Numbered from the stretch's first letter, positions 16,391 through 55,842 are shown. The stretch is 59,994 nucleotides of DNA from Candidatus Woesearchaeota archaeon (GCA_016180195.1 JACPBS010000006.1:68681-128674); one strand, 5' to 3'. Notes: a model not told the origin generated them from the letters alone. A program made the numbers and translations.

Positions 16391-18145
16391 ATGCCGAGAA
16401 TAGCAGTTATAGAAAAGGACAAGTGCAACCCTGTTGGCTGCGGCGGGTACCTATGCATAAGGATGTGCCCGGTCAACCGGATGGGCAAGGAATGCAAGGT
16501 AATAGGCCCTGATGGCAAGGCAGAGGTACATGAGGAGGTAAGCACGGACGCGTGCAGCGTATGTGTGAAGATATGCCCGTTCGGCGCCATACACATGGTC
16601 AACCTTCCTGCTGAGCTTGAGTTTCCCCTCCATAAATATGGAAGGGACGGGTTCAGGCTCTACAGCCTCCCATTCCCTGTATTCGGCAAGGTAATAGGGC
16701 TTCTTGGAATAAACGGAATAGGAAAAAGCACAGCAATCAAGATACTGGCACAGATCGTAAGGCCCAACTTCGGCAAGCAGGAAGAAGCGTCAATACAAGA
16801 AGTCATAGAGTACTTCAAGGGGACTGAGGCCCATCTTTTCTTTGAGAAAGTGAAAGCAGCCCAGATAAGGATTGCTTACAAGCCACAGGCAGTTGATCTG
16901 CTGCCGAAAACAGCGTCAGGAAAAGTCGGCGACCTTTTGAGGAAAATAGACTCTGCAGGAAAATTCGAAAAAGTGATCAATGAGCTGCAAATCGGCGCAA
17001 TACTTGATAATGACATAAAGACCATATCCGGAGGGGAGCTTCAAAGGGTGGCGCTGGCTGCGACAGCCCTGAAAAACGCAAATCTCCACATCCTTGACGA
17101 GCCTTCAACCTACCTTGATATCAAGCAGAGGATAAGGATGAGCCAGTTTGTGAAGTCCCTCTCAGTATCTGAATCATCAGTTGTTGTTGTGGAGCATGAC
17201 CTGATAATAATGGATTACATGACAGACATCATACATGTCATGTACGGGGAAGCGGGCGCATATGGAATAGTAAGCCTGCCAAAGGCAACAAGGAACGCAG
17301 TAAACGCATACCTTTCAGGAATGCTCCGGGAGGAAAATGTCAGGTTCAGGGATCATGAAATCAAGTTCAAGCCACGATTGCCTTCGGGAATGGGAAGAAA
17401 AGAGGAGCTTGCAGGCTGGAGTGAAATAACAAAACGCCTTGACAATTTTATTCTAAGCGCAGAAAAGGGAAGCATCGCAAGGAAGGAGGTAGTTGGGGTT
17501 CTTGGCGAGAATGGCACAGGAAAAACCACTTTTGTAAAGATACTTGCGGGAGTAATTCCTCCAGACACAGGAGAGATTGGCAAGGGAATAAAGATAAGCT
17601 ACAAGCCGCAATATCTGAGCACAGAATCAACAGATTCAGTTGCATCAGTGCTTCAAAAGGCTGTTGAAAAATATGAAATACAGCTAATAAGGCCATTGGG
17701 CCTGAAAACGCTGCTTCTAAAATCACTCGGTGAGCTATCCGGAGGGGAGCTTCAAAGGGTGGCGCTGGCAGAGTGCCTTTCAAAGGATGCTGACATATTC
17801 CTGATAGACGAGCCTTCTGCATTTCTCGACGCAGAACAGAGAATCATTACAGCAAAGATAATAAGGGATTTCATGGAGACATTCGGGAAGACAGCGGTAG
17901 TGGTAGATCATGACCTGCTTTTGATTGACCAGGTTTCAGACAGGCTCATGATCTTTACAGGAGAGCCCGCCAGGAAAGGCGTAGTCAGCGGCCCGTACAG
18001 CATGGAAGAGGGCATGAACAAGTTCCTGAAGGAGCTTAACATAACATTAAGACGCGACCCTGAAAGCAACAGGCCGAGGATCAACAAGCCTGACTCCCAG
18101 ATGGACAGGAAGCAGAAATCCGAGGGAAAGCTTTTCTATGGGTAA
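16391..18145 (+). CDS. rli1: ABCE1/Rli1 ribosome-recycling ATPase
   Basis: The 584-residue protein splits post-termination ribosomes and is essential in archaea. It has an N-terminal ferredoxin-like domain with two 4Fe-4S sets (Cys12, 17, 22, 26 and ACSVCVKICP), then two ABC domains. The first has Walker A GINGIGKST and signature SGGELQRVALAA; the second has GENGTGKTTF and LSGGELQRVALAE. Linker and hinge follow the family. The DNA for both signature motifs contains an identical 34-base stretch (17025-17058 and 17736-17769). An inverted repeat follows the stop. Confidence 0.97.
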   Translation: MPRIAVIEKDKCNPVGCGGYLCIRMCPVNRMGKECKVIGPDGKAEVHEEVSTDACSVCVKICPFGAIHMVNLPAELEFPLHKYGRDGFRLYSLPFPVFGKVIGLLGINGIGKSTAIKILAQIVRPNFGKQEEASIQEVIEYFKGTEAHLFFEKVKAAQIRIAYKPQAVDLLPKTASGKVGDLLRKIDSAGKFEKVINELQIGAILDNDIKTISGGELQRVALAATALKNANLHILDEPSTYLDIKQRIRMSQFVKSLSVSESSVVVVEHDLIIMDYMTDIIHVMYGEAGAYGIVSLPKATRNAVNAYLSGMLREENVRFRDHEIKFKPRLPSGMGRKEELAGWSEITKRLDNFILSAEKGSIARKEVVGVLGENGTGKTTFVKILAGVIPPDTGEIGKGIKISYKPQYLSTESTDSVASVLQKAVEKYEIQLIRPLGLKTLLLKSLGELSGGELQRVALAECLSKDADIFLIDEPSAFLDAEQRIITAKIIRDFMETFGKTAVVVDHDLLLIDQVSDRLMIFTGEPARKGVVSGPYSMEEGMNKFLKELNITLRRDPESNRPRINKPDSQMDRKQKSEGKLFYG

Positions 18146-44431: not shown

Positions 44432-44445
44432 GGGCCTGTAGCCTG
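44432..44445 (+). pseudogene. 5' fragment of tRNA-Arg
   Basis: gggcctgtagcctg repeats the first 14 bases of the tRNA-Arg gene at 44525 with one change (G for A at position 3), then stops. The fragment could still pair with the tRNA acceptor 3' strand through a G-U. Confidence 0.6.
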
Positions 44446-44519
44446 GGCAACCTTTAATAAGGTTGCATCGAAATTGTTTAAGTTTGGGCGTAAAATCTTG
44501 GTGATTTTAGCCCAACGAA
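44446..44519 (+). repeat. tRNA-associated two-hairpin element, copy 1
   Basis: The 74-base element has hairpin 1 gcaacctt/aaggttgc, an AT-rich linker with a TATA-like ttgtttaag, and hairpin 2 ttgggc-g-taaaatc / gattttagcccaa with one conserved bulged G. Copy 2 (47159-47231) matches it except for five changes, two of which are compensatory in hairpin 2 (GGGC/GCCC versus GGAC/GTCC). The full tRNA-Arg follows five bases later. Confidence 0.75.
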
Positions 44520-44524
44520 GGTAT

Positions 44525-44599
44525 GGACCTGTAGCCTAGCCTGGATAAGGCGACAGCCTTCTAAGCTGTAAATCCGGGGTTCGAATCCCCGCAGGTCCA
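44525..44599 (+). tRNA. tRNA-Arg (anticodon TCT)
   Basis: Full cloverleaf: acceptor ggacctg/caggtcc, anticodon stem acagc/gctgt with loop cttctaa (anticodon TCT), T-arm cggggttcgaatccccg, discriminator A. CCA is not encoded. No intron. The locus is preceded by a copy of its 5' end and the hairpin element. Confidence 0.95.
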
Positions 44600-44603
44600 T
44601 AAA

Positions 44604-44613
44604 AATTATAAAA
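44604..44613 (+). promoter_or_regulatory. TATA box of the methyltransferase/HD operon
   Basis: aattataaaa starts five bases after the tRNA-Arg 3' end and is centred 26 bases before ATG 44634. Confidence 0.5.
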
Positions 44614-44633
44614 CAACAATAAATCCAAGGTGA

Positions 44634-45692
44634 ATGCACTCGCTGGAATTTCTAATCAGTGCTCCGAACGTGCCCCGTCTTGGGGATCCAAGAAGAGCCC
44701 CAGCATATTGCTACGGGGAATGGGGAGTTAAAAAAGGAATCTATAGGAGAAAAAGCGATGCGTTGTACCGCGCAGAATGGGAAGGCGGGTCACAAAGGCA
44801 AATGGATATGGTGGTTGAAGCATCAAAGTTAGCAGGGCTTGGAGATTATCCGCAAATGCTTCGTGATTATTTCGCCCAGGCAGTCTCCACGATTGAAAGG
44901 CAGCGGAAGACAAGAAGTAACCTGCTAGAGATCGGCGCAGGGATATCGACCGTAAATGCCTATGAGCAGCTTATCAGGGACGGGGTTGATTTGGAAAAGG
45001 TATTTGGAGTCTACATAGAGCCTTCAAAAAAGCGCCTTGACAACTTGGTAGCGAAATTGAGCCTTATGGGCCTAAAAAGGGGGAAAAACTACATTGCAAG
45101 GAAGGATGTTGATGTGAATCTTCTAAGATACGTTGAAGAAAACTCGATTGATATCGCAGGAGCGGTAGCAACCCTGCATCACCATTCATACATTGACACG
45201 CCGCTTAAATCGCTTTATCGGGCACTTGCACCGGGAGGGCTGCTGATAATTGCTGACTGGCATAACCACGCCTGGACACATCCCTCGTATATTTATAATG
45301 CGCTGCTCAAAAATTACCAGTGGGAAACAAAGGAAGCTGACATGAATCGGTTTGTGCATGTGTATCCGAGTGCATTGGAAAAGCCGCCTTTGGTTACAAA
45401 CCCCTTTGAGCAGGAAGCCAACAGAATTATCCTTGATGTGTTCTGGCCCCAGTTCGGAAAGCTAAGGGCCGGGCTGATTGAATCAGGAGAATTCAATGCG
45501 TGGGATGATTTGCTGCAGATCGAAGGGCCTAGGCCTGTTGAAATGCAAAACATGGAACTAAAAAGGACAGGATACGTTTTGGAATCGGATGAAATAGCTA
45601 TGATAAAGGAAGCCCTGGGGGTAAGAAACCCGCATCAACTAAACAATCAAAACACGCTGCTGATGGGAACATTGGCGCAGAGGTATGAATGA
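44634..45692 (+). CDS. SAM-dependent methyltransferase-like protein
   Basis: The 352-residue protein has a class I methyltransferase core: LLEIGAGISTVNAYEQLI (motif I), VFGVYIEPSKKRLDNLVAKL (motif II), DIAGAVATLHHHSYIDTPL (motif IV position) and LAPGGLLIIADWHNHAW (motif V). An N-terminal helical part of about 90 residues and a C-terminal helical part surround it. Substrate unknown. It overlaps the HD-domain gene by four bases in a three-gene operon located between two tRNA loci, each with the hairpin element. Confidence 0.72.
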   Translation: MHSLEFLISAPNVPRLGDPRRAPAYCYGEWGVKKGIYRRKSDALYRAEWEGGSQRQMDMVVEASKLAGLGDYPQMLRDYFAQAVSTIERQRKTRSNLLEIGAGISTVNAYEQLIRDGVDLEKVFGVYIEPSKKRLDNLVAKLSLMGLKRGKNYIARKDVDVNLLRYVEENSIDIAGAVATLHHHSYIDTPLKSLYRALAPGGLLIIADWHNHAWTHPSYIYNALLKNYQWETKEADMNRFVHVYPSALEKPPLVTNPFEQEANRIILDVFWPQFGKLRAGLIESGEFNAWDDLLQIEGPRPVEMQNMELKRTGYVLESDEIAMIKEALGVRNPHQLNNQNTLLMGTLAQRYE

Positions 45693-46804
45693 GAAACCAC
45701 CCCTTGTATAGAGATGCTTTAGCGAGAATGGAATCTGTATTCGCACAGAAACGCAAGGAAGGCACCCTGAGCCTAGCACATGCGGAACTGCATGCAACCG
45801 CTGTCTCAAATTTTGGAGCGGCAACAGCCAGAGCCCTGGCAAATGCTCAAGGGCTAAACGATGTTGCAGAAAGATGGGCCATCCTGGCAGGGGCAGCATT
45901 CCTTCTTCATGACATAGAGAGATTTCCCAACGAAATCGTTCCTCACGGCCCCGCGAGCGCCAAATACCTTCATGATATATCGACAGAATGCCCTTGGACA
46001 GAACTTTCGCCTCATGAACTCTCATCACTTGAAGGAGCAATAAGGGAACATGAAAGCAATTTCGCGAGAATATGGGGGTTCTTTGGGGAACCTTTCGGAC
46101 TAAAGGGAAAAATATTGTCCTCTGTAATGGCACACGCATTACTCATAGGGGATAAGGTAATGGAGCAGTCAGGATACGGAGTCCTTCCGAGAAGATGCGT
46201 GTTTGTCGGCAAGGAAAGGATGCTTAACGACATCACGATGCTCCAATACCCAAGAGACTCCCATCTTGCGGTCCTTGCAGAGACGATGATAAGGCTATAT
46301 GAAAGGAACCCTATTGACTCCTATCCTGGTTGGATAAAAGGATTTGCAGAGGAATGGCACGGGATCCAATACATGTTTTACAAGGGGCTCCTTGAATATT
46401 GTGGCACAAGCGAGGAAACCTTTGCAAGGCTAATGCATGATGTCGGTTTCCCAAAATTTAATGAAACGGTAGTGGAAAAGGTAAGTGCACAGCAGCATCT
46501 TTCAGGAAAGTATTTCAGGAGAGAAGAATACCCTGTACTCTCAAAAACCGTGGCCGACATATCAGATCTTTCTAGAATAAGGCTTTCAGACCTCGCAGAA
46601 TCATCATATCAACTCGTACATGCCCTTGCAACGGCAGAAGACCCTGACGGCTTAATTTCCGCATTTAAACCACAGGAAACAAGCCTTGCATATCAAGCTG
46701 AATTCATGACAGGCATACAGGCATACAGGTCAGGATCGGGACAGCTCATAAGAAAGCTTGAGGAGGGAATTCATGCATACCATATTCAGCCTGCAAAAAA
46801 TTAA
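45689..46804 (+). CDS. HD-domain-like phosphohydrolase
   Basis: The 371-residue protein has an HD-type metal site: HAELHATAVSNFGAATARAL, then AGAAFLLHDIERFP (HD dipeptide) and further helices with REHESNFARIWGFFG and VMAHALLIGDKVME, which could supply the remaining ligands. HD proteins cleave phosphate esters of nucleotides or signalling molecules; the substrate is unknown. ATG 45689 overlaps the upstream stop (ATGA) and follows a GAGGT ribosome site. Confidence 0.65.
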   Translation: MRNHPLYRDALARMESVFAQKRKEGTLSLAHAELHATAVSNFGAATARALANAQGLNDVAERWAILAGAAFLLHDIERFPNEIVPHGPASAKYLHDISTECPWTELSPHELSSLEGAIREHESNFARIWGFFGEPFGLKGKILSSVMAHALLIGDKVMEQSGYGVLPRRCVFVGKERMLNDITMLQYPRDSHLAVLAETMIRLYERNPIDSYPGWIKGFAEEWHGIQYMFYKGLLEYCGTSEETFARLMHDVGFPKFNETVVEKVSAQQHLSGKYFRREEYPVLSKTVADISDLSRIRLSDLAESSYQLVHALATAEDPDGLISAFKPQETSLAYQAEFMTGIQAYRSGSGQLIRKLEEGIHAYHIQPAKN

Positions 46805-47084
46805 TGACAGATACCTGGTTATTGCTGCAAGAAATGCAGAAATGATTACCGTGGCAAGTGACACCTCGATTGTTGGGGTCGCCCAACAGTACTCAGCGAT
46901 AATACAAGGTGACATCAGCCGAGCCACAATGGGTTTATTCCCCCTCTACAACGCACAAGAATGGCCAACACGCAGTTTTGAGTCAGGTTATGATGTGGCA
47001 GACGAAGAAGCGACAGCCTTTGAAGAACTTGTTCAGAAATACGTGGGCCGTTTCCTAAAACCTGATTATATTATTCTGGAATAA
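46773..47084 (+). CDS. Small protein of the methyltransferase/HD operon
   Basis: The 103-residue protein begins MHTIFSLQKINDRYLVIAAR; a GAGGAGGG Shine-Dalgarno precedes ATG 46773, so I prefer it to the in-frame TTG at 46758. It overlaps the HD gene by 32 bases. It is mixed strand and helix, with a C-terminal helix EATAFEELVQKYVGRFL. No family was recognised; the overlap suggests a function shared with its two upstream neighbours. Confidence 0.55.
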   Translation: MHTIFSLQKINDRYLVIAARNAEMITVASDTSIVGVAQQYSAIIQGDISRATMGLFPLYNAQEWPTRSFESGYDVADEEATAFEELVQKYVGRFLKPDYIILE

Positions 47085-47093
47085 ATTTAAAAA
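47083..47093 (+). promoter_or_regulatory. TATA box upstream of the tRNA-Cys locus
   Basis: aaatttaaaaa centred about 31 bases before the tRNA-Cys 5' fragment. As at tRNA-Arg, the promoter sits before the fragment and not before the complete tRNA. Confidence 0.5.
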
Positions 47094-47118
47094 GATCGAT
47101 TTAATTTTGATTAAAAGT

Positions 47119-47142
47119 GCGCGGGTACCCAAGTGGCTAAGG
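47119..47142 (+). pseudogene. 5' fragment of tRNA-Cys
   Basis: The first 24 bases of tRNA-Cys (gcgcgggtacccaagtggct and four more) are repeated exactly here, followed by an unrelated 16-base stretch and then the hairpin element. Confidence 0.65.
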
Positions 47143-47158
47143 TGGGGGTGTTCGCCGT

Positions 47159-47231
47159 GGCAACCTTTAATAAGGTTGCATCGAAATTATTTAAGGTTGG
47201 ACGTAAAATCTGGTGATTTTAGTCCAACGAA
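47159..47231 (+). repeat. tRNA-associated two-hairpin element, copy 2
   Basis: Same element as at 44446: hairpin 1 is identical, the linker has ttatttaag (TATA-like), and hairpin 2 ttggac-g-taaaatc / gattttagtccaa differs by a base-pair swap that keeps the stem. The complete tRNA-Cys begins 25 bases downstream. Confidence 0.75.
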
Positions 47232-47255
47232 CTGCTGTTGTGTTTGAATGTGTGT

Positions 47256-47328
47256 GCGCGGGTACCCAAGTGGCTAAGGGGATCGCCTGCAGAGCGATTA
47301 TTCGGGGGTTCGAATCCCTCTCCGCGCT
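47256..47328 (+). tRNA. tRNA-Cys (anticodon GCA)
   Basis: Acceptor gcgcggg/tccgcgc, D-stem ccc/ggg, anticodon stem atcgc/gcgat with loop ctgcaga (anticodon GCA), T-arm gggggttcgaatccctc. The discriminator is T (U73), the tRNA-Cys identity base. No intron; CCA not encoded. Confidence 0.95.
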
Positions 47329-55456: not shown

Positions 55457-55630
55457 TTAACTCTTCATTCTTGGAATAACTATGTAAGCAATAAGTGCGA
55501 GCAATATGGTGACAAGCCAAAACACAAAAACATCGATTGCCCTTAAAGCGAGAAGTACAAAATTCGAAATTGCGACGATAGCTGCAAAAACCGCGACAAA
55601 CTGAATAGTATTCATGACAAATGGACTCAT
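55457..55630 (-). CDS. Small two-helix membrane protein
   Basis: The 57-residue protein has two membrane helices (TIQFVAVFAAIVAISNFVLL; DVFVFWLVTILLALIAYIVI) and a short basic end (PRMKS). The frame is open to a TTG at 55660 but ATG 55630 (MSPFVMNTIQF) is the better start. It converges with the FIST operon; its stop is one base after the operon's last stop on the opposite strand. Function unknown. Confidence 0.45.
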   Translation of the reverse strand: MSPFVMNTIQFVAVFAAIVAISNFVLLALRAIDVFVFWLVTILLALIAYIVIPRMKS

Positions 55631-55664
55631 TGGGATGCGCCTTTCATAAAGCTGCACCAAAAAA

Positions 55665-55700
55665 GTCGGGCGTAAAATCTTTTTGATTTTAGCCCAACGA
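55665..55700. repeat. Hairpin matching the tRNA-associated element, copy 3
   Basis: tcgggcgtaaaatc / gattttagcccaac with the conserved bulged G equals hairpin 2 of copies 1 and 2, again in plus orientation. It ends exactly at the 3' end of tRNA-Ala on the minus strand. On the minus strand it is followed by a run of six T, so it could be the tRNA-Ala terminator. Confidence 0.65.
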
Positions 55701-55842
55701 TGGACTCGTCGGGACTTTCAGTGGCTATTGGCTTTTGGTTTGCAGTTCGTTACTGATAACAACAAACTACCTGCCGATAACCATTTTGAACCCGAAGCCT
55801 CACCACAGCGAATGGTGCGCTCTACCATTGAGCTACGAGCCC
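55701..55842 (-). tRNA. tRNA-Ala (anticodon CGC) with a 70-base T-loop intron
   Basis: The minus strand reads acceptor gggctcg / cgagtcc with a G3-U70 pair (alanine identity), D-stem gctc/gagc, anticodon stem cacca/tggtg with loop ttcgctg (CGC), and T-stem tcggg/cccga. The T-loop ttcaaa is cut by about 70 bases (55715-55784) before t-cccga. Around both joints a bulge-helix-bulge fits: outer T-stem, central helix ttca/tgaa, bulges aaa and agt, inner stem tggttat/atagcca. Cutting after the second base of each bulge gives ttcaaat, a normal T-loop. Confidence 0.9.
55715..55784 (-). other. tRNA-Ala intron (position 59/60)
   Basis: Within the intron, tggttatcggc pairs with gccaatagcca (one mismatch), and an inner 11-pair stem gtagtttgttg / taacgaactgc has a seven-base loop. 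The fold brings the bulge-helix-bulge ends together for the tRNA splicing endonuclease. Confidence 0.8.

Follow-up and report, generated by a model that had tools for sequence, protein, structure and literature searches.

A family of short two-hairpin DNA elements, often flanked by repeated gene ends, at tRNA and other conserved genes of Woesearchaeales

The stretch of 59,994 nucleotides (nt) of a Candidatus Woesearchaeota archaeon analysed here (GCA_016180195.1, JACPBS010000006.1:68681-128674; hereafter the window), which is part of contig C5 of a 1.23 Mb genome, carries three elements of about 66 nt that each consist of two hairpins. They are located before tRNA-Arg, before tRNA-Cys and, in antisense, after tRNA-Ala, and each has the adjoining gene end repeated on its far side. 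In the copy before tRNA-Arg, hairpin 1 (44447-44466) is followed by a linker with the motifs ATCGAAA and TTTAAG, a hairpin 2 with a bulged G and a terminal CGAA, and the whole points towards the tRNA. The three copies belong to a family that is very probably mobile and that likely brings a replacement gene end along when it enters a gene. The family could perhaps represent a distinct mobile class, gene-less and about 66 nt long, which brings a synonymously different gene end with it and doubles as a bulge-helix-bulge intron in RNA genes.

With a first covariance model (R1), built from six copies, relatives were identified within the same family and order. A second model (R2; twenty copies, 64 positions, short form only) gave matches at E ≤ 1e-3 in 79 of the 353 genomes of the order Woesearchaeales (Candidatus Woesearchaeota), with 10 to 12 matches in each of the copy-richest genomes, and among the matches listed for 371 genomes sampled across the phylum all positives fall in this order. 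A scan of named genomes with the methyltransferase-like protein from the neighbourhood gave no relative. An exact-pattern scan named three Candidatus Woesearchaeota carriers, while its fourth match, in a Eubacterium contig, scored at chance and was rejected. About 120 match contexts were extracted and re-scored, resulting in 154 distinct copies (genomes, loci and contigs are given below by G, L and C numbers). The model matches span 48-79 nt and contain no gene. Rfam returned no match over two tRNA-flanking copies at E values up to 10, which rejects a known RNA family, and no known family fits the element. Contig ends are no more than a few hundred bases away from many copies, among others in G231, G339, G080 and G217; since repeats are expected to break assemblies, the copy numbers are probably underestimated.

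The copies are frequently flanked by direct repeats. In a fixed test, repeats to the left and right of the element were found in 63 of 148 testable copies, compared to 2 of 278 control positions, each offset by 420 nt. In 37 of 67 cases the left repeat runs precisely up to where hairpin 1 begins, and this end of the element is therefore fixed. Where the limits are sharp the repeats are 14-72 nt long, with no short target duplication of fixed length, and in many copies clean repeats abut both ends of the element, such as the 37 identical bases at a dnaK-like gene start (L095). The two copies of a gene end may differ, and at L091 the displaced tRNA-Ala end suits another acceptor stem than that of the complete gene. 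As a separate observation, the D-loop of the displaced tRNA 5′ end is one purine longer (AG-A-TGG or AG-G-TGG) in three independent insertions (L085, L088, L115). Furthermore, in several cases (G000 tRNA-Glu, G007 tRNA-Tyr, G001, G124) the outermost unit begins at the hairpin-2 loop, and the outermost duplicates at L004, L030, L034 and L114 look as though copying had broken off within the hairpin.

The lsm-rpl37e junction shows what happens to the gene end. It is filled in G149, G165 and G151, which belong to one genus, and empty in fourteen relatives. When G151 is compared to G167, its closest relative with an empty site, the upstream sequence together with the displaced gene start is identical at 255 of 266 positions. 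In the complete gene, the first 24 nt contain five differences, all at third codon positions, and the next 70 nt contain none (p = 8e-4 for the contrast). Ahead of its own gene body, G165 shares the 24-nt start and the short tail of G151. The rpl37e start beside the element has therefore been imported together with the element, and the native start is the one that was displaced; the element thus restored the gene end and displaced the native end in both G151 and G165. The repeats would end at the gene end because donor and recipient share no sequence beyond it. In the other protein-gene cases, third codon positions account for about 22 of the 26 differences that separate the two copies, L084 and L106 being read in hand-set frames (p = 1e-7 against one third, and 6e-5 against the share expected from a freely drifting displaced copy). 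In one G151 copy (L197), the linker is enlarged by an insert that contains two more hairpins and may be a nested element.

The occupied sites comprise the 5′ and 3′ ends of tRNA genes, the interior of tRNA and 16S rRNA genes, the vicinity of RNase P RNA, and both ends of protein genes, with the protein names of filled loci read from the sequence ends only. First, at 5′ ends the element is in sense and the gene start is repeated on its far side, as in tRNA-Thr (L085) and the dnaK-like (L095), rpl37e-like (L084, L106) and AAA-ATPase-like (L099) genes. Next, at 3′ ends it is antisense and the gene end is repeated, as in tRNA-Trp (L104), tRNA-Thr (L121), RNase P RNA (L105) and several protein genes (L035, L087, L089, L107). 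Copies inside tRNA genes are in sense and occupy the T-loop (L083, L111, L122, L124), the T-stem (L032), the anticodon region (L092) or the D-loop (L096, L132), and three are found inside 16S rRNA genes with the Rfam small-subunit matches running through them (L078, L128, L134). Finally, some sense copies directly follow a tRNA 3′ end, mostly with no visible repeat (L075, L102, L109, L113). Of the copies with an intact tRNA within 60 nt, 43 (18 sense, 25 antisense) have hairpin 2 facing it and 15 hairpin 1; these counts are lower limits because ARAGORN misses introns of the window's genome. The orientation of the element is thus set by the gene end, not by the transcript.

A reading of the window from sequence alone had suggested a small element which, on entering at a tRNA end, restores the tRNA, and had proposed searching for further copies and comparing empty sites. 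The covariance model recovered further copies near tRNAs in the same genome and in relatives, and empty sites exist, as at rpl37e. Together with the flanking duplications they make the insert-and-rebuild suggestion largely right; its restriction to tRNA ends was too narrow, since tRNA and 16S rRNA gene interiors and protein-gene ends are also used. Insertion as a miniature non-autonomous transposon, with a staggered cut of 14-70 nt generating the target duplication, selection for the covered gene end and later allelic exchange, would account for the empty sites and for clean repeats abutting both ends, of which L095 is an example. This appears rather unlikely, however, as the duplications are very variable in length, complete tRNAs prefer the hairpin-2 side (43 to 15), the outer limit of the duplication coincides with the gene end, and the same foreign 24-nt start precedes two different native backgrounds in G151 and G165.

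The alternative offered by the sequence-only reading, a structured leader, or correspondingly a trailer, which supplies a tRNA promoter, terminator or processing signal, hardly deserves credence. The TTTAAG-like linker sequence, a T-run that follows hairpin 2 if one reads from the 3′ side, and the proximity to tRNA genes would all suit it. Yet no common transcript-level role fits a family in which 25 of the 43 copies are antisense to the intact tRNA and downstream of its 3′ end, and a leader is rejected because orientation tracks the gene end. The element has opposite sense at 5′ and 3′ ends, is also found within 16S rRNA and tRNA genes and at protein genes, and is missing from most tRNAs and most relatives.

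The base pairing of the hairpins is conserved in a manner that also speaks against such a signal. In 89 aligned copies 374 alignment cells are changed on both sides of a pair, compared to 91 in shuffles (0 of 500 reach the observed value), and about 9 are changed on one side only; since the structure was used in fitting the alignment, the percentage of paired positions leans upward, with slid controls being far below. G.U pairs account for 19 of 2612 pairs in the element (0.7%), whereas acceptor and T-stem pairs of tRNAs from the same loci contain 33 of 494 (6.7%; p = 7e-15). The unit is a DNA element, and the scarcity of G.U pairs and the reversal of sense between 5′ and 3′ gene ends point to hairpins that matter in DNA. 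An identical pairing pattern could arise if palindromes are repaired by template switching. Integron attC sites, which the bulged base had suggested, were rejected since the GTT/AAC motifs are on the wrong sides of the stem.

Some of the copies inside RNA genes resemble introns. At L083, the 5′ arm of hairpin 1 pairs with the 3′ end of the insert, producing a four-pair helix flanked by three-base bulges, i.e. a bulge-helix-bulge, which the tRNA splicing endonuclease could cut, and L092 has a similar fold. Mobility at the RNA level, where a spliced intron would enter another RNA, be copied by a reverse transcriptase and recombine into the genome, would agree with the bulge-helix-bulge fold, with the sense orientation of copies inside tRNA and 16S rRNA genes, and with the outermost units of several arrays, which begin at the hairpin-2 loop like stalled copies. 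It is nevertheless very improbable, given the 25 tRNA copies antisense to the gene, the near absence of G.U pairs and the lack of the reverse transcriptase domain RVT_1 in G000, G231, G060, G137 and others. In addition, tRNA-Ala and several other tRNAs of the window's genome (L018, L020, L022) have T-loop introns ending in TGAAAG, which escape standard tRNA finders and of which that at L022 folds as a bulge-helix-bulge.

The features of the window are listed in Table 1. The two copies between a tRNA 5′-end copy and a complete tRNA had been recognised by the sequence-only reading, as had the compensated pair in hairpin 2 (GGGC/GCCC versus GGAC/GTCC) and its bulged G, and these observations stand with refined limits. 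At the third site, near 55665, a hairpin 2 is indeed present, but the site had been under-read: a complete element with hairpin 1 is found there, and the duplicated tRNA-Ala 3′ end of 15 bases had been overlooked. TATA-like boxes do stand before the tRNA fragments, as had been noted; since in the relative G007 such a box stands immediately ahead of a tRNA-Cys that is not interrupted, the box in the window is probably the native promoter left behind.

Table 1. Element copies and associated tRNA features in the window.
Feature	Position	Strand	Details
Displaced tRNA-Arg 5′ end	44432..44446	+	GGGCCTGTAGCC-TGG, against GGACCTGTAGCC in the complete tRNA; direct repeat CCTGTAGCCT
Element copy 1	44447..44519	+	73 nt; R1 88.5 bits, R2 68 bits; BLAST to other copies
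Complete tRNA-Arg (TCT)	44525..44599	+	ARAGORN; Rfam 70.5 bits
Displaced tRNA-Cys 5′ end	47117..47142	+	26 identical bases; direct repeat GTGCGCGGGTACCCAAGTGGCTAAGG
Element copy 2, before tRNA-Cys	47160..47231	+	72 nt; R1 94.4 bits, R2 71.5 bits
Complete tRNA-Cys (GCA)	47256..47328	+	ARAGORN; Rfam 58 bits
Displaced tRNA-Ala 3′ end	55621..55635	.	ATGGACTCATTGGGA, against ATGGACTCGTCGGGA in the gene
Element copy 3, complete	55637..55700	+	R1 69.7 bits, R2 51.6 bits
tRNA-Ala (CGC) with T-loop intron	55701..55842	-	Rfam 29 bits on 55787-55842

From dinucleotide shuffles, 0-0.01 chance matches to either hairpin core are expected in the window, and this together with the double-change pairing rules out chance palindromes. 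Folded as single-stranded DNA, copy 2 reaches -19.2 kcal/mol (z -7.8) with both hairpins in the optimal fold. Copy 3 points at the 3′ end of tRNA-Ala, where 13 of 15 bases match between 55621-55635 and 55700-55714; taken alone, the best left/right repeat score of this copy (17) is below the shuffle maximum of 24. With limits set by eye, the tRNA-Ala gene consists of exon 1 (55785-55842), an intron (about 55715-55784) and exon 2 (55701-55714), and ARAGORN calls it once the intron is joined out. A BLAST search of the element against its own genome found four places, each beside a tRNA gene. In the fourth, at tRNA-Glu, two diverged elements stand in tandem before the complete gene, and the same 13 tRNA bases precede each of them. 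Elsewhere in this genome (L014, C11:52058-52141), a tRNA-Ser 5′ end occurs three times in tandem with repeated 3′ ends downstream, and the spacers are a shorter one-hairpin unit (CAAATCACTAACGTGATTG plus GTCGAA), possibly a related reduced element. The window also contains an identical 34-base direct repeat (17025-17058 and 17736-17769, 711 bases apart) which is unrelated to the element.

The entry of the element joined to a replacement gene end can be pictured as follows. At the DNA level the two hairpins would function as element ends or as structures for recognition, and movement may proceed through broken or single-stranded DNA, most likely in a homing-like manner where a break or gap in a conserved Woesearchaeales gene, near its end, is repaired from a donor consisting of the element and a gene end. 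The gene side would join by homology, a step supported at the rpl37e locus, and the hairpin-1 end by a step specific to the element, with an enzyme presumably acting in trans. The native gene end would come to lie beyond hairpin 1, and the gene in its complete form, carrying the replacement end, would usually remain on the hairpin-2 side, so that the host retains a working gene; copies inside tRNA and 16S rRNA genes are tolerated.

Several observations weigh against this model. More than half of the copies have no detectable duplication, and import of a gene end is proved at the rpl37e locus, the case elsewhere relying on the third-position differences. Apart from L083 and L092, the intron-like copies, including the three in 16S rRNA, have no evident bulge-helix-bulge in a simple fold, and for this reason we infer rather than observe that intron-like copies are spliced in the cell. 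The search for a mobilising enzyme was also negative for the families examined. Among 51 genomes, RVT_1 is found in 11 and absent from 40, Y1_Tnp is found in 15 and LAGLIDADG_3 in 43; the Y1 transposase is missing from the same four genomes named above for RVT_1, and the copy-rich G231, G060 and G137 lack all three. As resident partners these three families are thus rejected, for their occurrence does not follow the number of copies. The partner may belong to a family outside the three or act from outside, for example from another cell.

The origin of oddly placed archaeal tRNA introns and of shed tRNA fragments has long been argued with few intermediate states in hand, and the family supplies empty, filled, duplicated and intron-like states of one unit across related genomes. 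It illustrates one way for DNA to enter essential genes without killing the host, and implies an unrecognised enzyme handling DNA hairpins in Woesearchaeales or supplied to them. If the family is indeed a distinct mobile class, it would provide a route to non-canonical tRNA and rRNA introns and tRNA fragments in archaea.

No description of such elements was found in open-licence papers, although several known systems share some of their features. Miniature inverted-repeat transposable elements (MITEs) are likewise short, gene-less and multi-copy, have direct-repeat flanks and are presumably moved in trans, and the dispersal of the family, which occupies 79 of 353 genomes with as many as 12 copies in one of them and has empty alleles at rpl37e, is similar to theirs. 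In contrast to MITEs, the element has two separate hairpins instead of inverted terminal repeats joining its ends, its duplications are long and variable, its sites are gene ends and interiors, at one locus it brought a foreign gene end, and no parent transposon is known. Searches with the short-form model of 64 positions showed no larger relative. Repetitive extragenic palindromic (REP) elements and the hairpin ends of IS200/IS605 also contain imperfect hairpins with a bulged base, the structure of which is conserved in DNA. Elements of these types are not known to duplicate their target on insertion, whereas 63 of 148 copies here are repeat-flanked, and the Y1 transposase is absent from G000, G231, G060 and G137. 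Archaeal bulge-helix-bulge introns resemble the sense copies in tRNA and 16S rRNA genes and the one clear bulge-helix-bulge fold, but the element is also found outside genes, in antisense (25 tRNA-adjacent copies) and with duplications, and such introns as such are not known to share a conserved two-hairpin core. The group I introns known from LSU rRNA of Woesearchaeota are much larger than the element (PMC6125680).

The restored gene end, the displacement of the native fragment to the far side and the use of tRNA 5′ or 3′ ends are shared with integrative plasmids, viruses and islands of the SSV and pNOB8 types. The copies might accordingly be attachment sites that remain from larger plasmids or viruses, which an integrase inserted at gene ends and which were later deleted, since integrase-driven elements restore gene ends likewise. 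This is an improbable origin for copies nearly all of the same small size (48-79 nt), with covarying hairpins and located at many different genes; no larger version was seen among the copies read, and one exact-pattern scan of viral contigs gave no match. Compared to the SSV and pNOB8 types, the element is 66 nt instead of kilobases long, has neither integrase nor other genes, and forms one family at many tRNAs as well as at rRNA, RNase P RNA and protein genes. The closest description in the literature, which would also suit such an origin, is that of the tRNA-Thr of Caldiarchaeum, where a 2012 study found a 5′ fragment upstream of the complete tRNA with an insertion between them, read as the trace of a mobile element; unlike the family described here, that case is a single locus with a 1.8 kb insert coding for a putative recombinase and no hairpin family (PMC3293823).

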